Positions 1-62,745 of a stretch of 63,745 nucleotides of DNA are shown here, one piece after another. Made by a program: the position numbers and the translations under genes. Position 1 is the stretch's first letter; each line of letters opens with the position of its first letter. The DNA comes from Spirochaetales bacterium (GTDB lineage Bacteria; Spirochaetota; Spirochaetia; UBA9216). The stretch spans positions 1 to 63,745 of the forward strand of contig QKCC01000046.1 in NCBI GenBank assembly GCA_003245835.1. The letters run 5' to 3'. The notes beneath the pieces are model-generated. The model was not told where the DNA came from. It saw only the letters and a list, made by a program, of their open reading frames with translations, and ran no database searches.

Positions 1-736
1 GTCGGATAAACATCAGTTTATATGGCTCGGTGCGGATGAAGTAGAAGAACAGGGAGTCGTTCAGACTAACCAGTTCCTGATAATCAATAACGGCAGGGGA
101 ACTCTTGTCGATCCGGGCGGAATTCATCTGTTTTCAAGGGTAGTGGCCCTGGTGAGCAGGTATATAGATCTGGACAAAATCGATAACATCTTTTTTTCAC
201 ATCAGGATCCGGATGTTTCAAGCGGTATCGCATTATGGCTTGGCGTAACCAAGGCTCAAATCTATATATCACAGTTATGGATAAGATTCATTCCTCATTT
301 CGGTATTGTGGACAACAGCCGGATTAAGGCAATCGAAACCCTCGGCGGAAAGCTATCACTCGGATCAGGAGCTTCTCTGAAGCTTATACCTGCTCATTTT
401 CTGCATTCATGCGGTGTTTTTACATTTTTTGACCCTGTATCCGGCACGCTTTTTACGAGCGATATAGGAGCTGCTGTTTTCCCTTCTAACGGACAATATC
501 TTTTTGTTGAAGATTTTGAAAAACACCTTGCCATAATGGAGCCCTTTCATAAACGTTATATGGCATCCAATACTGTTATCAAAAAATGGATCAGCTCGCT
601 TAACGGACTTGATATAAAACTCATAGCGCCGCAGCATGGTGCATTAATCAAGGATGGAAATATCTCCAAGTTTTTTAACTGGTTTTCCAATCTCCGCTGC
701 GGAATAGATATTCTGGACAGTATCTATAATAGCTGA
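1..736 (+). CDS. ODP-like di-iron metallo-beta-lactamase-fold oxygen/iron sensor, 5' partial
   Basis: The reading frame is open from base 2, so the N-terminus lies outside the window. The visible 244 residues are a metallo-beta-lactamase fold of the flavodiiron type without a flavodoxin domain. Candidate iron ligands are the His of an HQDPDV motif (codon at 200) with its two acidic residues, a His in HFLHSCG, the Asp of TSDIG and the His of PQHG. The second His of the usual HxExDH motif is replaced by Val, so one metal ligand appears to be missing. From family knowledge, flavin-free ODP proteins of spirochaetes bind oxygen at a di-iron site and signal through a cytoplasmic chemoreceptor encoded beside them. 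The next gene, 7 nt downstream, is exactly such a receptor. A plain flavodiiron reductase is less likely because no flavodoxin domain follows. Confidence 0.82.
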   Translation, partial: SDKHQFIWLGADEVEEQGVVQTNQFLIINNGRGTLVDPGGIHLFSRVVALVSRYIDLDKIDNIFFSHQDPDVSSGIALWLGVTKAQIYISQLWIRFIPHFGIVDNSRIKAIETLGGKLSLGSGASLKLIPAHFLHSCGVFTFFDPVSGTLFTSDIGAAVFPSNGQYLFVEDFEKHLAIMEPFHKRYMASNTVIKKWISSLNGLDIKLIAPQHGALIKDGNISKFFNWFSNLRCGIDILDSIYNS

Positions 737-1631: not shown

Positions 1632-3839
1632 TCAGGGATCATAGGTTTTGTAATTTTCCCTGCCCTGAAGCACCCTGATCACGCCATCGGCAAGCGCCTG
1701 CATCTCATTTTCACCCGGATAAACGGTTATACCGCAGTTCAAATTTGCTACATCCCTGCGAATGCCGTCAGTAAGCCGGTCAGACCTCGACATTCCGCCT
1801 GTAAGAATAATCTGATCAATTTTTTCTCCGTTGAATGCCGGCAGCAGGGAACATATTTCCTTTGAAAGCTGATAGGTCAATGCACTGAAGACTAAATCTG
1901 CATCTTTGTCACCCTGCTCTATCCGGGCTTCCACATCCCTGAGATCATTTGTCTGCAGCAAATCTACCAGTCCACCGGCCCCCTTATTGAGTTTTTTCAG
2001 CTGTTCTTTTGTATACCTTCCGGAGAAGCATAAATCAATAAGCTGGCCGGGTGGAAGGCTGCCTGATCGCTGCGGTGAGAATGGACCTTCTCCGTTAAGG
2101 GCGTTATTAACATCAACGTACCGCCCCCTGAAATGTGCTCCTACGGAAATTCCGCCGCCCATATGCGCAACAATAACATTTATATTCTTATAAAAGGTTT
2201 CGTGTTCTTCAGCCCACCTTCGTGCCGAAGCTATCTGATTTAAAGCATGACTTATCACGTACCTGCGAATCTCTTTAATCCCGGTAATTTTGACCTTTTC
2301 TTCAACCTCGTCAACTACAACCGGATCAACAATATATGCTTCAATTCCGGCAGATGCGGCAATTTCAGAAGCAATAATCCCGCCCAGATTCGATGCGTGT
2401 TCACCGCCTACCCCTGTCCTCAGATCCTCCAGCATTTTTTGGGTAACCAGGTAAGTCCCCTGCTTTATAGGCCTCAGAAGGCCTCCTCTACCGGCTACCG
2501 CGTCAAAACTCGAAGCGCTGATGCCGTTCCTGTCTAAAAATGCAAGAATCTTTTCTTTACGGTATTCATACTGCTCAGTAACCGAACGGTTTTCAAATGC
2601 ATATAGTTCTTCTGCCGGATGCTGCAGTTCTTCGGAGCAAATCATGTAAGATCCTTCGAAGACGCTGACCTTTGTTGATGTGGAGCCTGGATTGATTGCA
2701 AGAACCCTGTATCTTTTAAAAAATGTGTCGTTTGGGGTCCGGGTCCAGGCTTCTTTTTTCAGGAGGTTAAGAATAGTAGCCTTTACCCCTAATCTTATAT
2801 CTTCAGAAGAACAGTCACGTGCAAGATCCACGGCTGAAAATCCTATTCCCGATAAAATACTGAATTTTTTTGAATTCGGAAACCTGGTTGCATAGAGATG
2901 GTAAAGCAGATTCCCCATATCCAGATTCGGACATATTATAACGTTAGCAGGTCCGTCCCAGCTTTCGAGCTTGTCGTGACTGTAGTACATAGCAGAACGC
3001 CGCGATAGTGCTACATTGACTTTAACTTCGCCCTCGATAGATATACTACCGTAACGGCTGTCCTGCTTTACATACTTCTTCAAAAGTACCGGAACAATCT
3101 CTGATGCCTGTTTAACCAGCTCGGGGGAAGGTCCCTCATCAGAGCCGTGGTTCGAATACGATACTATAGCTCCCTGTATTTCCGGCAGGATATCTTCAGG
3201 AATGATATTTCTGGCAATCGTACAAGTATCAACCGCAATATGAGCAAGTACCTCCGGAGTCATTGTTCCGTTTACACCGACATCGCCGAATACGATTATA
3301 TTATTCGAATAAATTTCTTCATTGTTTTCGTCAGGCAGAACAAAAACGCCAGTTTCAGACTGTACTTTTCTGGTTTTCAGATATTTCAGCAGCGGCCGGA
3401 AATATGTTACTGCTTCGTGTGTGCTTCCTCCAACGACAATATCAGCATGTCCCATTTTTACTGCAAAAATACCGAAAATACAGGAGTCTTTAACATATTC
3501 AACCGCTGAGCTGTATTCGATATTTCTTCCCTGAGTAGATTCAGACTTTATATATTCAGCAGCAAAACTTTCGATAAGTTCTTTCTGCTCATTAATATCA
3601 ATGAAAACGGTCTGAGATAGCGCATACTCTATCCTGTTTTTTTCTAGAAATCCAAGTTCATTTTCTATAATCTTCCGGACAGTCTTTTCTGATTCGGGTA
3701 TTACCGGTCTGATAAATCTTGTCAGATAACACAGAGCTTCAAGCTGGCGGGAATCACAGGCCTCTGTAAAAAACACAGTCGGCCTGCCGCTTTTCAGTTC
3801 TGCTATCTGCCGGTCAAGAGATTCTTCGATATTATACAA
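1632..3839 (-). CDS. Bifunctional phosphotransacylase-butyrate kinase fusion (Pta/Ptb-Buk)
   Basis: One uninterrupted 735-residue frame joins two enzymes that are normally separate. Residues 1 to about 360 are a PTA/PTB-family acyltransferase: a VGGSTHEAVTYFRPLLK segment near 136-152 and a VIICPNLDMGNLLY segment near 300-313 match the phosphate acetyltransferase pattern, followed by a SAVDLARDCSSEDI tail. A short linker leads to butyrate kinase from about residue 377, with INPGSTSTK as the ASKHA phosphate loop, AHMGGGISVGAH, GEGPFSPQRSG and a C-terminal LTGGMSRS. The fusion should turn an acyl-CoA and phosphate into the acid and ATP without releasing the acyl phosphate. Chain length cannot be read from sequence; butyryl or branched C4-C5 is likeliest from the kinase half. 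A sensor kinase lies 21 nt upstream in the same direction, probably cotranscribed. Confidence 0.9.
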   Translation of the reverse strand: MYNIEESLDRQIAELKSGRPTVFFTEACDSRQLEALCYLTRFIRPVIPESEKTVRKIIENELGFLEKNRIEYALSQTVFIDINEQKELIESFAAEYIKSESTQGRNIEYSSAVEYVKDSCIFGIFAVKMGHADIVVGGSTHEAVTYFRPLLKYLKTRKVQSETGVFVLPDENNEEIYSNNIIVFGDVGVNGTMTPEVLAHIAVDTCTIARNIIPEDILPEIQGAIVSYSNHGSDEGPSPELVKQASEIVPVLLKKYVKQDSRYGSISIEGEVKVNVALSRRSAMYYSHDKLESWDGPANVIICPNLDMGNLLYHLYATRFPNSKKFSILSGIGFSAVDLARDCSSEDIRLGVKATILNLLKKEAWTRTPNDTFFKRYRVLAINPGSTSTKVSVFEGSYMICSEELQHPAEELYAFENRSVTEQYEYRKEKILAFLDRNGISASSFDAVAGRGGLLRPIKQGTYLVTQKMLEDLRTGVGGEHASNLGGIIASEIAASAGIEAYIVDPVVVDEVEEKVKITGIKEIRRYVISHALNQIASARRWAEEHETFYKNINVIVAHMGGGISVGAHFRGRYVDVNNALNGEGPFSPQRSGSLPPGQLIDLCFSGRYTKEQLKKLNKGAGGLVDLLQTNDLRDVEARIEQGDKDADLVFSALTYQLSKEICSLLPAFNGEKIDQIILTGGMSRSDRLTDGIRRDVANLNCGITVYPGENEMQALADGVIRVLQGRENYKTYDP

Positions 3840-3860: not shown

Positions 3861-5573
3861 TCAAGTATCTTCGAACTCCTTCACAGGAATATCAAGAAGG
3901 AAGGAAATATGCTTATCAGCAGAGTAACTGTAAGTGAAGCTTCCATTAAGCTGCTGGGCAAGGTTTTCAAGCAGATTTAATTCAAAACCATCCATAGGAC
4001 ATTCATTTTCAGGATATTTTCCGGTACAAATATAAATAAACTCGAATGAATACCTGTCTTTTGAAAGACTTTCTTTTGATTTCATTATGAATTCAATTTT
4101 TTCACTTTTTTCACGTTTAAATAACTCGAACATTATTATCATGATACCGGCGAAAATCAAACCGGAAATCGTAGCTTTGTCAGTCGGAGCATGGATTTCT
4201 ATCAGCTCGGTCTGAGTCTTGAAGTTTTCTGCTGATAAATTGCTTTCTGTTTTTAGGTATCCTATAAGCCGGTTAATATAATCCTTTAAAGAGACAGCCC
4301 GAAAGTTGTCGGATTCATACATCAGCTCATGAACTATTGCCATTGAAAATAATCTCAATTCGAATCTTAAGATAAGATCATTACACTTTTCTGATACTTC
4401 ATCAGTTTTTTCAAAATTCAGCAGGCTTATGATAATCTGAAGATTGTTTTTTACCCGGTGATGCAGTTCTTTTATCAGTATTTCTTTTTGTCCCAGCGAG
4501 TCAGTCAGCTTGTTCTGAATATTTTTGAGCATACTGACATCGGTGAATACGGCATAACTTCCGCTGTAGTCTCTATCATCATCAAACAAGCCTCTGGGAC
4601 TGACAATTGTTTCTGTTCTGTTTTCATTCCTGTCGATCAGCGTCAGCTCGTACTGGTCGTTTCCGCCGGATTTCCTTAAGCTGATATTACATTCAAAAGC
4701 GTTTTTAAATTCGTCATCTATATAATCAAGCATATCGGTCCCGGCGATGTCCGTTTCATTCATACCGACCCAGTCGCAGAATTTTCTGTTTGCAAGTTTA
4801 ATCCTGTTGCTGCTGTCAATCACAACAAAACCGTCGTTCATGCTTTTTAATAGCTCAAAATATCTTCTTTCACTCTTAAACAGATCCATTTTAAAATTCA
4901 AATTCTGCGTGTTCAGTTTTACCCTTTGTCTGTATAAAAAGACCGAAATGAGAATTATCAGCAGCAAAACAGCAGTAGAAAAAATGGTTATTACGATAAA
5001 AAGACTTCTGATCTCAGATGATAATCTCTGTATATAAAAACCCGTTCCAATTATCCAGCCCCATGGTTCGTAGCTCTTCACAAAGGATTTTTTTGCCAGC
5101 ACATCGCCGCCCGAATACGGAACTTCCCAAAGATATTCGAGATAACCTTCACCGGATGTTTTGGCAATATCAACCATTTCCTGAAACAGCCTGTTCCCTT
5201 TTGCGTCCGTGTAATTGCCTACATAGGTATGTTCCAGATCCTTCTGAAAAGGATGCATCAGCAAAACCGGCTGCATATCAATAATCCAGAAGTAAAAATC
5301 CTTTTTCTCGCCGTATCTCTGGTCTTCAAGAATTGACAGGGCTTCGGCCTTTGCATGGTGCAGACTAATAGTCCCGTTCTTTACGCTTTTGTTCATCGTA
5401 TCCAGAATCTGGATCTGAGACTCTACGAGCAGCTTTATATTCTCGGTCTCTTTTGCAACAAAAGATTTGCGTATATAGGGCATGATTATTATAAATATAG
5501 TTAATGAAAACAGCAGAATAATAATAAGCAAAGGAATAATTATACCTGATATCCTTATTTTTATCCTCTTCAT
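3861..5573 (-). CDS. Cache-PAS sensor histidine kinase (HisKA_2 type) with degenerate ATPase domain
   Basis: The 570-residue protein has a transmembrane helix at about 11-32, a periplasmic single-Cache domain at about 35-185 (DFYFWIID, GEGYLEYLWE, GWIIGTGFY), a second helix at about 188-214 and a PAS domain at about 240-355. A HisKA_2 box ELHHRVKNNLQ follows, with the phosphoacceptor His near 372. The C-terminal ATPase region does not show the expected motifs: the segment that should read ELxxNA is GIMIIMFEL, and the D-x-G-x-G loop is replaced by YICTGKYPEN. ATP binding is therefore doubtful. No response regulator is adjacent. The gene precedes the Pta-Buk fusion by 21 nt, which suggests that a small ligand sensed by the Cache domain, perhaps a carboxylate, is tied to fermentation control. 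That last point is inference. Confidence 0.82.
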   Translation of the reverse strand: MKRIKIRISGIIIPLLIIILLFSLTIFIIIMPYIRKSFVAKETENIKLLVESQIQILDTMNKSVKNGTISLHHAKAEALSILEDQRYGEKKDFYFWIIDMQPVLLMHPFQKDLEHTYVGNYTDAKGNRLFQEMVDIAKTSGEGYLEYLWEVPYSGGDVLAKKSFVKSYEPWGWIIGTGFYIQRLSSEIRSLFIVITIFSTAVLLLIILISVFLYRQRVKLNTQNLNFKMDLFKSERRYFELLKSMNDGFVVIDSSNRIKLANRKFCDWVGMNETDIAGTDMLDYIDDEFKNAFECNISLRKSGGNDQYELTLIDRNENRTETIVSPRGLFDDDRDYSGSYAVFTDVSMLKNIQNKLTDSLGQKEILIKELHHRVKNNLQIIISLLNFEKTDEVSEKCNDLILRFELRLFSMAIVHELMYESDNFRAVSLKDYINRLIGYLKTESNLSAENFKTQTELIEIHAPTDKATISGLIFAGIMIIMFELFKREKSEKIEFIMKSKESLSKDRYSFEFIYICTGKYPENECPMDGFELNLLENLAQQLNGSFTYSYSADKHISFLLDIPVKEFEDT

Positions 5574-53980: not shown

Positions 53981-55180
53981 ATGAATGTACTTGTAATCAA
54001 CAGCGGAAGTTCTTCTATAAAATTTCAGTTAATAGATATGGATAAACGCTGTACTCTGGGCAAGGGCCTGATTGAACGTATCGGCATTGACGGGATTCTA
54101 AACTTTCAGCCTGAAGGCGGAGAACGCTGCGTCAGGAAGCTTGATATACCCGACCACAAAACCGGGCTTGATTATGCCCTTGAAAGTATTACAGATAAAT
54201 CATCAGGTATTATCAATAATCTTTCTGAGATCCATGCCGCAGCGCACCGTATCGTGCAGGGCGGAGCTGCAATGACCGGGCCTGTTATTATCACACCCGA
54301 ACTTCTTAAAGAGTTTGAAAAATACACCCCCCTCGCCCCTCTTCACAATCCAGCCTGCCTGCTGGGTGTCAGTGCAGCACAAGTCCTTCTTCCGGGCATC
54401 CCTCATGTTGCTTCATTTGACACAGCCTACTACAGCGGTATGACTGAAGAGGCTTACACCTTTGCGCTTGATTATGACTGTTATGAGAAACTAGGGTACC
54501 GCAAGTTCGGTTATCACGGGGCATCTCACCGTTACGTTAATTTGCGGGCCGCAGAATTTCTTGGTGCAGATAAAACAGACTTCAGAACAATCAGCTGCCA
54601 TATCGGCGGCGGCGTGACTGTTGCGGCATCGATCGACGGCGAAGGCGTCGACACATCACTTGGGTACGGAACCGTCTGCGGGGCACCGATGGGCACAAGG
54701 TCCGGAGACGTTGACCCCGAAGTTATTCTTCAGTTGATTTCACGCGACGGCTACACCGCCGAAGAAGTCAAGGAAATGATTTATAAAAAATCCGGATTAT
54801 TAGGTATAAGCGGTATATCAAGCGACATTCGTGATATACTGCAGGCAATTGAAGACGGTAATGCACGAGCAGAACTGGCTTTAAATATTTTCACCAGGTC
54901 TATCCGAAGATTTATCGGTGCACTCAGCACCAGCCTTGACGGGCGTATGGATGCCCTGATATTTACTGCGGGAATCGGTGAAAATTCTGATACTGTGCGT
55001 TCGATGATATGTAAAGGACTCGAGATATCAGGAATAAAAATAGATGAAGAACTAAACAGCGGCTGCAGAAATGAAGCGGTAATATCATCTTCTGATTCAG
55101 CTGTCAAGATTCTCGTTATTCCGACAAATGAAGAAATGATGATGGCTATTGAAGCCGTTGAAACACTTAACAACAACTGA
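53981..55180 (+). CDS. Acetate kinase-family acyl kinase with altered active-site residues
   Basis: The 399-residue ASKHA kinase has AckA length and most AckA motifs: INSGSSSIKF, LAPLHNPACLLG, SFDTAYYSGM (Asp147), GYHGASHRYV (His179), PMGTRSGDVDP (Arg240) and FTAGIGENS. Several residues near the acyl and phosphate sites differ from classical AckA: HRIVQGG has Gln93 where His is usual, FDTAYYSG replaces FDTAFHQT, and CHIGGGVT has Gly210 where HLGNGxS has Asn. The GGG loop resembles butyrate kinase. It makes ATP from an acyl phosphate; acetate is possible but the substrate may differ. An ATTCGGAGG-type ribosome site precedes it, and the operator lies upstream. First gene of an operon with a P1 peptidase and panE. 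Confidence 0.88.
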   Translation: MNVLVINSGSSSIKFQLIDMDKRCTLGKGLIERIGIDGILNFQPEGGERCVRKLDIPDHKTGLDYALESITDKSSGIINNLSEIHAAAHRIVQGGAAMTGPVIITPELLKEFEKYTPLAPLHNPACLLGVSAAQVLLPGIPHVASFDTAYYSGMTEEAYTFALDYDCYEKLGYRKFGYHGASHRYVNLRAAEFLGADKTDFRTISCHIGGGVTVAASIDGEGVDTSLGYGTVCGAPMGTRSGDVDPEVILQLISRDGYTAEEVKEMIYKKSGLLGISGISSDIRDILQAIEDGNARAELALNIFTRSIRRFIGALSTSLDGRMDALIFTAGIGENSDTVRSMICKGLEISGIKIDEELNSGCRNEAVISSSDSAVKILVIPTNEEMMMAIEAVETLNNN

Positions 55181-57181: not shown

Positions 57182-58393
57182 CTATTCCGGAACGATCTTG
57201 GCAACAAGAACCTTCTTTCCGCCTTCAATTTCAAAGAGGAAAAGAGGTTTGTCGGCAGGATATCCGCCCTTGTTGGTCCAGCTGTACTGGAGACCTTCAA
57301 AGTTCTTTATGTCGTTACAGTAGTCTCTGATCTTGGTTCTTTCTTCAGCAAGCTTCTTCGGGTCACCGGTAACTCCGGTTTCTTCGATAGCTCTTTTGAT
57401 CATGTAAACTGCATCATAGTAGTTCGGTGAAAGTGAGAAAGGCTCCATACCGTCATGATCATCCTTGAATCCCTGGCGGAAAGCATTCCAGCGCGGAGTG
57501 TCAAGAGCAGGATCATTGTAGTTGTAGATCATAATACCGTTGATCTTGTCGCCGCCTGTTGTGTAAAGAGCAGCATCATCAGCGCTGGAGAAAACAAGAA
57601 TCTTGTTCATGTCCGCCCATCCGCGGTTTTTGAGCTCAATAACAATTTTGGCTACTTTCTCGGCATTACATGCAAAGATGATTCCGTCAGGATTCTGTGC
57701 AAGGGCTTTAACAATAAGCGGACCGAAAGCAACTGCGTCCTGGGGTACTTCAACATCATCAAGTACTGTTACACCGGCTTTTTCAAGTCCGATTACATGT
57801 GCAGCAGCCATTCCGGGCCATGCGCCGTAATTTTCAACAAACTGTACAACCTTCTTGGTACCGGTTTTTTTCGCCCATGCAGTTACAATCGGCGGAAGCT
57901 TTTCGTCTGTCGGGGAGAACCATGAAATTGCCCACGGAAAATATTTTGCGGCATATTCATATGATGTTGTAGCAGTGAAACTGTAAACACCCTCGTCTGC
58001 TGCGATAGGTACTGCGGCCATGATTACAGGCTCCGGAACCGGACCCATAACAACAAGTGCATCCTCAACAAGCTTGGACATCTCGACAGTACCCTTTTCA
58101 GGACTCATTCCGGTGTCAACGCCGATAACCTTTACGGGTTTTCCTGCAATACCGCCGGCAGCATTGATCTGCTCTGCAGCGAATTCTGCACCCCATTCAA
58201 GGTATTCACCGATACTTGCAATCGGGCCGGTAAGACAGTTAAGGAACGGGATTTCCCATTCGTCTACCATTACTTTTGCGCTTTCTTCGGCTTTTTCCAT
58301 CGCAGGTTTATCAGATGCTTCCTGAGTTCCGCCCGCAAAAATGAATGAAGCTGATACAAGCAGCAACAGCAGGATGGATAGAATTTTTTTCAT
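57182..58393 (-). CDS. Branched-chain-amino-acid-type ABC substrate-binding protein
   Basis: The 403-residue periplasmic protein (Peripla_BP_6, LivJ/LivK-like) has a signal peptide ending FAGGTQEAS, without a lipobox Cys, a form frequent in spirochaetes. The mature part has the two-lobe pattern NCLTGPIASIGEYLEWGAEFA, split here as LTGPIASIGEYLE and GAEFAAEQINAAGGIAG, followed by VIGVDTG. It is the last gene of the liv-type operon, after the permeases, with GGAGG 6 nt before the ATG. LivJ-like proteins bind branched-chain amino acids, short amides or urea; the ligand cannot be told here, and given the neighbours a ureide or amide deserves thought. Confidence 0.9.
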   Translation of the reverse strand: MKKILSILLLLLVSASFIFAGGTQEASDKPAMEKAEESAKVMVDEWEIPFLNCLTGPIASIGEYLEWGAEFAAEQINAAGGIAGKPVKVIGVDTGMSPEKGTVEMSKLVEDALVVMGPVPEPVIMAAVPIAADEGVYSFTATTSYEYAAKYFPWAISWFSPTDEKLPPIVTAWAKKTGTKKVVQFVENYGAWPGMAAAHVIGLEKAGVTVLDDVEVPQDAVAFGPLIVKALAQNPDGIIFACNAEKVAKIVIELKNRGWADMNKILVFSSADDAALYTTGGDKINGIMIYNYNDPALDTPRWNAFRQGFKDDHDGMEPFSLSPNYYDAVYMIKRAIEETGVTGDPKKLAEERTKIRDYCNDIKNFEGLQYSWTNKGGYPADKPLFLFEIEGGKKVLVAKIVPE

Positions 58394-58415
58394 GTTTTCC
58401 TCCAAATAATTTTCA

Positions 58416-58428
58416 GTACTTAAAGTAC
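58416..58428. repeat. Small inverted repeat ahead of the binding-protein gene
   Basis: GTACTTAAAGTAC lies between the livM stop and the binding-protein ribosome site. It could shield the downstream message from decay and help the binding protein accumulate above the permeases. Confidence 0.3.
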
Positions 58429-58447
58429 CGTTTTAGATCGTAATATT

Positions 58448-59329
58448 TTATACCTTTTTTTTATTTAGTGACAGCAAACTTTCTAGTTTTTTAACCATCG
58501 GTCTGGTAATTATGCCCTCCGGTTTAATAACAAGAACAATAATCAGAAGAACACCATAGATAACAATGTTCCATGATTCCACGGCGTCCGGCAGGATCAG
58601 CGGAAACCCCCATAAAATCGGTGCGGCAAGCAGTGCTCCCCATAAGGTGGAATATCCGCCCACAAAAAGCATAGTCATACATACACCTACAATATGAAAA
58701 GTGAAGTGATTAGGAGAAATGCTGCGCATAATAAACGCATACATAACACCGGCCATTCCGCCGATACCGCTCGCCCAGGTCTGCAGAAACATTCCCATTT
58801 TCTTAACATCGACGCCGAACGAAACAGCAAGGTCCTTATCAATAAAAATCGCTGAAGAAGCGCGTCCGAGGCGGGAATGATCAAATCTCGAAATAAGAAA
58901 ACCCGTAATAAGAACAAGCGCGTATACTACTATCAGCAGCAGCGTTCTGTTTGATGCTGAAGAACTGAGAACCTTGGGAATGCTGAAAATTCCAAGCGGT
59001 CCGCCGAAAGCATCGACATTCTCTATTATTGTTTTTGTGAGGTAAATAAATGTAAAACCTACAATAACAACTGCAAAACAAGGAGCGTCCCCTATCGCAA
59101 AGGAAACAAGAAATCCTATCAGCGCGCCGAGCAGGGTCCCCGCAATAAGCACAAGCCAGAACGGCCATGCAAAAGTAATTGCCATAAGCGCCGCAAAATA
59201 CGCTGAAATCGCCATATTAGCAATTGTCATAAAATGGAGCTGTCCGATTCGGTACGGAATGTAGATAGACCAGCTCATGAGAATATAGATCGCTGTTATA
59301 GCAAGAAAATAAAATAAAGTTAAAGACAC
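58448..59329 (-). CDS. livM: Branched-chain-amino-acid-type ABC permease (LivM-like)
   Basis: The 293-residue membrane protein has eight or so helices and a LivM-type LGRASSAIFIDKDLAVSFGVDVKKMGMF block, given here as LGRASSAIF and DKDLAVSFGVDV, which contacts the ATPase. The start is the GTG at 59329 with a GGGAGG ribosome site; an extension to 59425 overlaps livH and is rejected. It sits between livH and the binding protein in one minus-strand operon. Confidence 0.9.
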   Translation of the reverse strand: MSLTLFYFLAITAIYILMSWSIYIPYRIGQLHFMTIANMAISAYFAALMAITFAWPFWLVLIAGTLLGALIGFLVSFAIGDAPCFAVVIVGFTFIYLTKTIIENVDAFGGPLGIFSIPKVLSSSASNRTLLLIVVYALVLITGFLISRFDHSRLGRASSAIFIDKDLAVSFGVDVKKMGMFLQTWASGIGGMAGVMYAFIMRSISPNHFTFHIVGVCMTMLFVGGYSTLWGALLAAPILWGFPLILPDAVESWNIVIYGVLLIIVLVIKPEGIITRPMVKKLESLLSLNKKKV

Positions 59330-59343
59330 ACTTTCCTCCCGGC

Positions 59344-60231
59344 CTATAGCTTTGAACCGAAAACCCCTTTGGGTTTCGCCAGAATTACTACCAGCATTAC
59401 AATGAAGGCAATAGCATTCGACCACGATCCGGCCATATAGCCCTGAATTATCGCCTCAAGGATACCAAGCAGAAGACCGATTATAAGACCGCCTGTCAGG
59501 TTTCCGAGACCCGCAATAATCGATACGGCAAGCACCTTATGTCCAAGCTGGTCACCAAGGCCCGCAGATGCTGAGCCCAGAAGTATGGCCATCAGTACTG
59601 CAGTCACTCCGCCGATAAACCCTGTCAGAGCGTAACTCTGAAAGCCGGTTCGCAGAAGCGGAATACCAACGAGCTTTGCTCCGTTCGGATCTTCTGCAAT
59701 AGCGCGGAATGCACGGCCTGACCTGGTTTTGTAAAGCAGCCAGAAAAGTCCGAGAACGAATATTACGCCTATTACAAGAGTGAGCACCTGCCCTCTCGAA
59801 ATACTTACTAGTCCGATACTCACAATCGCGCCCTTGTCATTCCCTGTAAGAGCGTCGGGAAAGGCAATGGGAAAACCCTGGTTGAATGTATGGGACAGAA
59901 TATCAGTGATGATCATTCCCATTCCCATCGAAATTACCATGGTCGCATTTATGTCGACCGATCCCCGTTTTTTCATAATATGCTGGAACATCGGTGCGGT
60001 AATCGCATTGACAGCTATAGCCGACAGGATTCCTGCCGCGATGCCCAAAGCCACGCTTCCGGTAAGCTTCATAACAAACCATGAAATATACATTGAAAAT
60101 ACAACTACAACCGGAAAAGAAAAATGAATAATCATTGCGACAAGAAGAAGAAGATTGAATCCAGTCACAAGAAGAACATAAATACTTCCGATTGATAATC
60201 CGTTAAAAATCTGAGCAATTAATACTTCCAT
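59344..60231 (-). CDS. livH: Branched-chain-amino-acid-type ABC permease (LivH-like)
   Basis: The 295-residue membrane protein has the LivH-type N-terminus IFNGLSIGSIYVLLVTG and the EAA-like loop SGRAFRAIAEDPNGAKLVGI. It pairs with LivM to form the translocation channel. It begins 3 nt after the livF stop and is followed by livM after 14 nt. Confidence 0.92.
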   Translation of the reverse strand: MEVLIAQIFNGLSIGSIYVLLVTGFNLLLLVAMIIHFSFPVVVVFSMYISWFVMKLTGSVALGIAAGILSAIAVNAITAPMFQHIMKKRGSVDINATMVISMGMGMIITDILSHTFNQGFPIAFPDALTGNDKGAIVSIGLVSISRGQVLTLVIGVIFVLGLFWLLYKTRSGRAFRAIAEDPNGAKLVGIPLLRTGFQSYALTGFIGGVTAVLMAILLGSASAGLGDQLGHKVLAVSIIAGLGNLTGGLIIGLLLGILEAIIQGYMAGSWSNAIAFIVMLVVILAKPKGVFGSKL

Positions 60232-60234
60232 CAG

Positions 60235-60948
60235 CTATGCTCCCAGGTATGCTTCGCGGACAGATTCATCGTTCAGAAGTTCATCTGAAGTTCCGCTTTT
60301 AATAATTTTGCCGGTCTCAAGGACATACCCCCGGTGGGCAATTTTGAGAGCCTTATATACATTCTGCTCTGAAAGCAGAATCGAATATCCTTCTTTATTA
60401 AGGTTAACCAATATTTCAAAAATATCGTTAACAATAATTGGCGCAAGACCAATTGACGGTTCATCGACCATAATCATATCCGGTGCAGACATAAGCGCCC
60501 TTGCGATTGCAAGCATCTGCCGCTCGCCGCCGCTCAGTGTTCCGGCAATCTGCGTCCTTCGTTCTCCGAGGACAGGGAAAGAGTCGAATACAAGCTCCAG
60601 CTTGCTCGCTGAATCTTTAAGATTGTGATGAGCACCGAGAAGCAGGTTGTCCATTACCGTCATCGACGAAAATACTCCTCGCCCCTCAGGAACGAGGTAC
60701 ATGCCGTTGCGAACATTCCTGTCAACAGGATTTCCTGATGTCAGCTTGTCCTTGAACCGGATTTCACCTCCGGACGGAACATTAGCCCCGAGAACAGTTT
60801 CCATTATGGTTGTCTTTCCGGCTCCGTTGGCTCCGACCAGAACAACTATTTCACCCTGCCCGACATCAAGACTAACACCCTTCAAAGCATTTACGTGACC
60901 GTAATTTACTTTCAGATCTTTAATACTCAGTATATTATTCCGTTCCAA
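60235..60948 (-). CDS. livF: Branched-chain-amino-acid-type ABC ATPase (LivF-like)
   Basis: The 237-residue ATPase has Walker A GANGAGKTT, signature LSGGERQ and Walker B MIMVDEPS. The start is unusual: a TTG at 60948 with a strong GGAGG six nt upstream (60959-60955). No ATG lies near, and an ATG at 61002 would add 18 unrelated residues from within livG. The chosen start overlaps livG by 14 nt. It works with LivG, LivH and LivM. Confidence 0.92.
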   Translation of the reverse strand: MERNNILSIKDLKVNYGHVNALKGVSLDVGQGEIVVLVGANGAGKTTIMETVLGANVPSGGEIRFKDKLTSGNPVDRNVRNGMYLVPEGRGVFSSMTVMDNLLLGAHHNLKDSASKLELVFDSFPVLGERRTQIAGTLSGGERQMLAIARALMSAPDMIMVDEPSIGLAPIIVNDIFEILVNLNKEGYSILLSEQNVYKALKIAHRGYVLETGKIIKSGTSDELLNDESVREAYLGA

Positions 60949-61690
60949 GGTATGCCTCCAGTACTCTCGGATCCTTCTGAACTTCTGCAGGCGTACCTTC
61001 AAAAATATTATCGCCGAAATTCAGCACCGTTACCATCTCGGCTACATTCATAAGCATTTTCATATCATGACTTACCACGACCGGAGAAATACCCATACTT
61101 TTAATCTTCTTGATCAGCTCACCTACCTGATCCGTCTCAATAGGTCCCATTCCTGACGCAGGCTCATCAAGCAGAAGCATCTTGGGTTTAGAAACGACCG
61201 CCCTTGCAATCTGAACGAACTGCCGCTCAGCCCATACAAGATCGTACGCCCACCTGTCGGCTGATTTCTCGAGGTCAAGAAGCTCGAGGATCTCCATAGC
61301 TTTATCCTTAAGAACGGACTCTTTTTTTGATTCTTTCAGCGGAACTCTGAAAAATGTATCCGCTATATCATTACGTCCATAATCAAAAATTCCGCTCATA
61401 ACGTTCTCTACAACAGTAAGTGAAGGCACAAGCTTCCCTTGCTGAAAAGTCCTGCGGATTCCGAGATTTGATATCTCATGAGCTTTTTTCCCGGTTATTT
61501 CAACGTCATCCAGGTAAATATTACCCGAAGTTACCTCGAGCAGTCCTGTAATACAGTTGAACATAGTTGTCTTGCCGGAACCGTTTGGTCCTATTATTCC
61601 ATGAACCCGGCCGTCGGCTATGTCGAAGCTGACATTCTTCAGCGCTTTTAGTCCGCCGAAATGTTTACTGACACCTTTTATTGAAAGCAT
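60935..61690 (-). CDS. livG: Branched-chain-amino-acid-type ABC ATPase (LivG-like)
   Basis: The 251-residue ATPase is first in the operon. Walker A is GPNGSGKTT and Walker B is MLLLDEPASGM. The signature motif, normally LSYGQQR in LivG, is degenerate here as LVWAERQF, so composite ATP hydrolysis may depend on the LivF half. The family-typical C-terminal extension is short. AAAGGA precedes the ATG. Confidence 0.92.
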   Translation of the reverse strand: MLSIKGVSKHFGGLKALKNVSFDIADGRVHGIIGPNGSGKTTMFNCITGLLEVTSGNIYLDDVEITGKKAHEISNLGIRRTFQQGKLVPSLTVVENVMSGIFDYGRNDIADTFFRVPLKESKKESVLKDKAMEILELLDLEKSADRWAYDLVWAERQFVQIARAVVSKPKMLLLDEPASGMGPIETDQVGELIKKIKSMGISPVVVSHDMKMLMNVAEMVTVLNFGDNIFEGTPAEVQKDPRVLEAYLGTE

Positions 61691-61848: not shown

Positions 61849-62745
61849 ATGATTAGCGATTTCAAGGAACTTGAAAAACTGGCGGTTACGAATGTATCCA
61901 AAAAGGTAGTACTGGCTATGGCAGAAGAAGCTGACGCACTTGATGCTGTTGCAAAGGCATCAGCGGCAGGTATTATAAACCCGGTGCTTGTTGGGAATAT
62001 TGATGCAATAAAAAGGACTGCAGATGAAATCGGTGTCGACATCACTGATTTCGAACTTGTACCGGCTGAAGGTGAATATGAATGTGCCGCAAAGGCGGTT
62101 GCCCTTATCAGGGACGGCAGCGGAGACTGCCTGATGAAAGGAAAGACAGCTACATCCACCATTATGAAAGCCGTTCTTGATAAAGAGACAGGCCTAAGAG
62201 GTTCCGGAGTTCTATCGCACATTGCAGTCATTAATCCTCCCACCTATCACAAACTTTTAATTACAACCGACTCGGCGCTTAACATCGCGCCCGAACTCAA
62301 AGACAAGATTGCAATAATCGAGAATGCTCTTACGGTTGCCAGAAAATTAGGTATTGAAACTCCTAAGGTTGCAGTAGTCGGGGCTGTCGAAAAAGTAAAC
62401 ACGGCAATGCCTGCGACCCTCGATGCGGCAATCCTGTCAAAAATGTCGGACAGGCACCAGATTAAAAACTGCATAATTGACGGTCCATTCGCTCTTGACA
62501 ATGCAATTTCTCAAAAAAGTTGTGAAATTAAGGGGATCGAATCCGAAGTCGGAGGCGATGCCGACATCATCCTGTTCCCGGATATCGAAGCGGCAAATGT
62601 ATTCTATAAATCGCTTGCCTACCTGACCGACTACCCGATGGCAGGCCTGATAGCCGGCGCTTCCGTACCTATAATCCTGACTTCACGCAGCGATACGGAT
62701 ATGATTAAGTACTACTCAATACTGGCGGCGGTATCGCTGGTTTAG
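61849..62745 (+). CDS. ptb: Phosphate butyryltransferase
   Basis: The 298-residue stand-alone enzyme has LMKGKTATSTIMKAVLDKE, LLITTDSALNIAPEL, and the C-terminal IIDGPFALDNAIS and DIILFPDIEAANVFYK. It exchanges CoA for phosphate on butyryl or branched C4-C5 acyl groups. No kinase lies beside it, but the Pta-Buk fusion at 1632 or the AckA-like kinase could complete the pathway. It is divergent from a branched-chain-amino-acid-type transporter, which suggests fermentation of valine, leucine or isoleucine to branched acids. ACAGGAG precedes the ATG. Confidence 0.94.
   Translation: MISDFKELEKLAVTNVSKKVVLAMAEEADALDAVAKASAAGIINPVLVGNIDAIKRTADEIGVDITDFELVPAEGEYECAAKAVALIRDGSGDCLMKGKTATSTIMKAVLDKETGLRGSGVLSHIAVINPPTYHKLLITTDSALNIAPELKDKIAIIENALTVARKLGIETPKVAVVGAVEKVNTAMPATLDAAILSKMSDRHQIKNCIIDGPFALDNAISQKSCEIKGIESEVGGDADIILFPDIEAANVFYKSLAYLTDYPMAGLIAGASVPIILTSRSDTDMIKYYSILAAVSLV

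Follow-up and report, generated by a model that had tools for sequence, protein, structure and literature searches.

A butyrate kinase preceded by a phosphotransacetylase-fold domain that lacks the catalytic serine: a putative regulatory module

When consecutive enzymes of a pathway are fused, channelling is the usual interpretation. To our knowledge, no butyrate kinase (Buk) with a fused control domain is known. As far as the literature could be searched, no published description of a fusion between a phosphotransacetylase (PTA)-family domain and a butyrate kinase was found; within the same scope, the appended pseudo-phosphotransacetylase domain reported here is probably new, being the first on a butyrate kinase. 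The closest described systems, and the only studied parallel known to us, are the hybrid malic enzymes (MaeB, DME, and TME), in which a Pta-derived domain is borne by an unrelated enzyme. The PTA domain of MaeB, which is without catalytic residues, is a hexameric acetyl-CoA sensor (PMC7902834, PMC12704298).

The DNA analyzed here, referred to as the window, is a stretch of 63,745 nucleotides from a Spirochaetales bacterium (contig QKCC01000046.1). Its minus strand carries a single unbroken frame of 735 codons at positions 1632-3839, with a TTG start at 3839 and a stop ending at 1632. GGAGG precedes the TTG by a few bases, and homologues open with a methionine codon at the residue aligned with it. 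The frame had been predicted to contain a full PTA/phosphotransbutyrylase (Ptb) domain and a full butyrate kinase domain; the frame, the fold, and the kinase all stand, whereas the catalytic residues of the PTA domain are incomplete. A domain search over the whole protein, as had been proposed, placed Pfam PTA_PTB (PF01515) at residues 67-348 (E = 1.3e-29, 104 bits against a cut-off of 24) and the entire TIGR02707 butyrate kinase model at residues 378-731 (454 bits against a curated cut-off of 289), and Thermotoga Buk2 was aligned by phmmer to residues 377-734. From these matches, together with residue and motif alignments, Foldseek searches, and the frames of relatives, a PTA-fold domain (residues 1-372, positions 2724-3839, minus strand) and a butyrate kinase domain (residues 377-735, positions 1635-2711, minus strand) could be delimited. 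The boundary lies near residue 372-376, and a linker is almost absent.

An AlphaFold model of the fusion was obtained with a pLDDT of 88.5 and a pTM of 0.85, in which the arrangement of the domains needs caution, given that the input alignment misplaced Pta rows onto the kinase half; a model from 10 sequences only was poor (pLDDT of 60). Foldseek comparison of the two halves returned solved Buk structures, to which the kinase half of the model fitted at 1.2-1.5 Å rmsd, and Pta and MaeB-PTA structures, those for the PTA half including 1QZT, 6IOX, and 8FIR. The C-terminal 357 residues are ∼47% identical to known Buk (TIGR02707; Thermotoga Buk2, PDB 1SAZ/1X9J), with a common fold and common motifs; the known enzymes are single-domain proteins, whereas the fusion has the 372-residue PTA-fold domain in front. 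The kinase half keeps the Buk/acetate kinase (Ack) active-site motifs NPGSTSTK, GRGG, HMGGG, QRSGSLP, and GENEM. Across nine aligned fusions, NPGSTS, RGG, HMGGG, QRSG, and GENEM are present, corresponding to Asn7, Arg91, His180, Arg241, and Glu384 of Ack; in the Ack/Buk family, these motifs bind the nucleotide and the acyl phosphate. The equivalent of Ack Asp148 is not cleanly aligned across the fusions, all of which contain a DPVVVDE motif. By its sequence, the kinase half is a butyrate-kinase-family acid kinase with intact active-site motifs, and it is predicted to be active.

In a tree of PTA domains, the fused domain groups with Pta and MaeB-type domains on a long stem, and a branch with 100/100 support divides this group from Ptb. 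Its placement indicates Pta-side ancestry within the family and not descent from Ptb. The PTA half scores 100.9 bits with TIGR00651 (pta), under the cut-off of 311, and 14.9 bits with TIGR02706 (ptb; cut-off 410), the latter being weak evidence, as the genuine Ptbs of these genomes also score below. A stand-alone protein closely related to the PTA half was sought in 395 genomes of Spirochaetia and 393 of the phylum and was not found; the best non-fused matches reached 102-108 bits, compared with 509-718 bits for the fusions. An origin by fusion of adjacent ptb and buk genes was also considered and is ruled out, given that the PTA half lies on the Pta side and Ptb is separately present.

To characterize the PTA half, ten fusions covering the catalytic site were compared with 27 canonical Ptas, with positions numbered on the Pta of M. 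thermophila (MtPta). Ser309 of MtPta is Ser in 27/27 canonical Ptas and is replaced in every fusion, by Ala in six and Pro in four. At the Arg310 position, where Arg is likewise found in 27/27 canonical Ptas, the fusions have Met (four), Arg (three), or Lys (three). The protein of the window has Ala340 in place of the catalytic Ser but keeps Arg341, Asp338, and Asp347; only the Ser is gone among its three catalytic residues. The CoA contacts Q244, K283, and Q286 of MtPta correspond to Lys273, His314, and Thr318 of this protein, and across the fusions the first is Lys and the third Thr in 10/10, with His in nine and Phe in one at the second. The CoA pocket position Y282 is Tyr or Phe, and the R87 (LRKxK) loop, which holds the CoA 3′-phosphate, is missing. 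Thus, by comparison with the Ptas of M. thermophila, P. gingivalis, and T. pallidum (TP0094), the fusions have in common the fold, membership of PF01515, and the equivalents of Asp307, Asp316, Asn279, and Arg133, and they differ in the absent Ser, the variable Arg, the replaced CoA loop and pocket, and scores below the curated Pta and Ptb cut-offs.

These replacements bear directly on the meaning first given to the fusion, namely that it joins the usual ptb-buk pair so as to channel the labile acyl phosphate, the N-terminal half forming acyl phosphate out of acyl-CoA and phosphate and delivering it to the fused kinase. Such a bifunctional enzyme would accord with the two-domain architecture and fold, which are real, with the strong conservation of the PTA domain, with the retained equivalents of Asp307 and Asp316, and with the Arg310 equivalent kept in 3/10 fusions, that of the window included. 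Against it, the domain is of the Pta side, the catalytic Ser is missing from all of the fusions and the Arg from 7/10, and several CoA contacts are replaced. In the Pta of Treponema pallidum, S314A, R315A, and D321A mutants had 0.30, 0.07, and 14% activity, respectively (PMC10194888), and mutation of Ser311, Arg312, or Asp309 abolished activity in the P. gingivalis enzyme (PMC6461089); mutants at the same positions as those altered in the fusions thus lost 99.7% or all of the activity in two Ptas. We infer that the PTA half is no longer a conventional transacylase. Of the two most damaging losses, the window's own protein has one, and weak residual transferase activity is possible in it, given that Arg341 and Asp347 remain.

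A likely source of acyl phosphate other than the fused domain is encoded in the same window. At positions 61849-62745 on the plus strand lies a gene for a canonical Ptb of 298 residues, identified by homology and by a motif check that found LTSRSD intact. A separate Ptb is present in 11/11 genomes that carry the fusion (E = 1e-81 or better), and its catalytic TSR[AS]D is intact in each. Its start overlaps the stop codon of the fusion, as ATGA or GTGA, in four metagenome-assembled genomes (MAGs) from lakes, a layout typical of genes for partner enzymes; in the Spirochaetia that carry the fusion, Ptb is not adjacent to it, and in one of these (G342) Ptb has a Buk neighbor of its own. No Buk other than the fusion was found in 8/11 of the genomes, two of which (G004 and G007) are just 81% complete; Ptb therefore needs the fusion as its partner. 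Among 60 relatives, 28 have both Buk and Ptb and 28 have neither, with two having Buk alone and two Ptb alone, such that a separate Ptb accompanies Buk in nearly all of them. Were the fusion able to make acyl phosphate for itself, at least some of its carriers would be expected to lack Ptb, yet none has lost it. The Ptb at 61849-62745 is thus most likely the supplier of acyl phosphate to the kinase half, and the bifunctional enzyme appears unlikely. The same reaction sequence as in ptb-buk operon pairs is expected, with Ptb accompanying the fusion in every genome; the difference is that the fused domain is an additional PTA-fold domain and not that Ptb. The residues, the phylogeny, and the genomes all speak against the channelling originally proposed, which is probably wrong.

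The PTA half does not have the appearance of a domain in decay. Pairwise identities among the fusions for the PTA half and the kinase half are 72/72, 69/72, 64/62, 60/65, and 51/59%, and the near-parallel course of these values argues for selection on the PTA half. Its replacements are uniform (Lys273, Thr318, and Ala354 in 10/10; His314 in 9/10), and little or no variation is seen in the cleft motifs GGxxHEP, GDVGVN, SYSNxGxDEG, PNLDxGN, and VDLxxD. Taken together, the identity close to that of the kinase half and the uniform cleft replacements point to an altered ligand site that has been retained, or to a structural role. Replacements that are uniform and not random, with (nearly) invariant cleft motifs, are also what would be expected of a working site, and the domain might accordingly have a new catalytic activity in a PTA fold, with a rebuilt site that acts on another substrate, one that supplies or consumes acyl phosphate. 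However, a regulatory ligand site would show equal conservation, neither a substrate candidate nor a linked gene was found, and the gene neighbors are not conserved between lineages; a new activity is therefore quite improbable.

The reading that best explains the data, to which we assign a probability of about 0.7, is that the fusion is a butyrate-kinase-family acid kinase, fed by the separate Ptb and carrying a pseudo-transacylase as an allosteric and/or oligomerizing module. Here, Ptb would convert a branched-chain or short acyl-CoA and phosphate to acyl phosphate; the kinase half would catalyze acyl phosphate + ADP ↔ acid + ATP; and the pseudo-PTA half would bind a ligand, form an oligomer, or both, and so control the kinase. 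A further reading has about even odds; in it, the pseudo-PTA domain, turned into a metabolite sensor or into a new enzyme, would have a ligand other than acetyl-CoA and would gate an ATP-forming acid kinase. The locus points to a regulated last step of fermentative ATP formation.

The precedent of MaeB makes allosteric ligand binding, oligomerization, or both the most likely role of the pseudo-PTA domain. The fusions resemble the hybrid malic enzymes, whose Pta-derived domain is without the catalytic Ser/Arg, in the loss of the catalytic Ser from all members (the Arg is variable in the fusions), and the PTA half has SYSNxGS and NVAL motifs in common with the MaeB PTA domain (Foldseek TMt ∼0.8). 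They differ from them in that the enzyme half is a kinase, the order of the domains is reversed, and the two do not group together in the tree. When the acetyl-CoA contacts of BbMaeB (R535, K538, R581, N718, Y721, and K722) were compared with the fusion, the loop was found to be lost, the Arg and Asn to be kept, the Tyr to be Tyr or Phe, and the last position to be His. Given that these contacts, among them the 3′-phosphate loop and the pocket Lys, are mostly not conserved, the ligand of the fusion may differ from acyl-CoA, and the parallel with MaeB is one of architecture only. If the regulatory reading is true, the fusion would be a second, independent case of a phosphotransacetylase turned control domain beside the hybrid malic enzymes, spread between lineages by gene transfer. 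Confirmation would establish a second system beside MaeB for the change of a catalytic PTA fold into a sensor, with the intact Ptb of the window as control enzyme.

The gene neighborhoods of Ptb bear on the likely substrate. On the minus strand at positions 57182-61690, the window has ABC transporter genes of the branched-chain amino acid type (LivK/M/H/F/G-like), assigned partly by eye and with a LivG-like match in NCBIfam. Genes of this type are divergent from Ptb in G000 (the genome of the window), G002, G003, G004, and G007. Immediately before Ptb in G006 are genes for a 2-oxoacid:ferredoxin oxidoreductase of the VorB type (VorB, 557 bits against a cut-off of 399), and related oxidoreductase genes appear after buk-ptb in G342. 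A separate operon of the butyrate type lies on contig C122 of G000 (L078 1240-10850); it comprises thiolases, three genes of the hydroxyacyl-CoA dehydrogenase kind (hydroxybutyryl-CoA dehydrogenase included), ptb, buk, crotonase, and a CoA-transferase, and its ownership is uncertain in an assembly with 7% contamination. Given the oxidoreductase and transporter neighbors of Ptb and this separate operon, branched-chain acids are the more likely substrates of the fusion and of the window's Ptb. The pathway would probably be an ATP-forming fermentation of branched-chain amino acids, given that the Ptb of some relatives adjoins 2-oxoacid:ferredoxin oxidoreductase or branched-chain transporter genes.

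No operon that would explain the substrate was found at the fusion locus itself, where the neighbors are glycogen genes, an FMN reductase, a MinD-like gene, and chemotaxis genes, and these are not conserved outside the genus. Within the genus, a pair comprising a diiron/metallo-β-lactamase-like protein that resembles the N terminus of flavorubredoxin (window 2-733) and an adjoining soluble chemotaxis receptor is conserved beside the fusion. The FMN-reductase gene is directly upstream of the fusion in G002, G003, and G004; in this genome only, a PAS/histidine-kinase gene (3861-5573) lies between the two. An acetate kinase gene, ackA (53981-55180), is clustered with P1-type peptidase-like and ketopantoate reductase-like genes in the window, divergent from panB and, in the window, folD, and the same cluster is near Ptb in G002 and G003.

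The fusion is present in 11 genomes, from a Spirochaetia lineage and from lake bacteria outside Spirochaetia. The Spirochaetia carriers number seven (6/60 nearest relatives, together with G342), and the lake MAGs four. Besides the window, the frame is continuous in G002, G003, G004 (the public MAG UBA9216), G006, G007, G342, G395, and G396; in the G397 and G398 MAGs, it is broken at contig ends. Although the source genome is an assembly of 318 contigs with 7% contamination, a merger of two genes by sequencing or assembly error, a doubt raised with the original prediction, has next to no probability and is ruled out: the identical junction and frame recur in the eight other genomes, and in the two split at contig ends, at 51-72% identity. 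These fusions constitute a genuine natural protein family in which a PTA-family domain is joined to a butyrate kinase.

The fusions form one clade in the PTA tree and in the kinase tree, with 100/100 support in each. Given that they are monophyletic in both, the simplest reading would be that the fusion arose once and was then passed between lineages. RpoB of G395, on which the comparison for the lake lineage rests (the G342 and G396 rows were left out because of wrong frames), has ∼49% identity to that of Spirochaetia, against 72-94% between most of the sampled Spirochaetia and the genome of the window; the lake lineage is, on this marker, outside Spirochaetia. In two lake MAGs, a 1465-residue protein without assigned function is encoded on the opposite strand near the fusion-ptb pair (L030 9810-14204). 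A further butyrate kinase, free-standing and very divergent, with an INNGSTS motif and a long branch, is encoded on contig C309 of G000 (L079 7954-9078), where it adjoins MFS-transporter-like genes.
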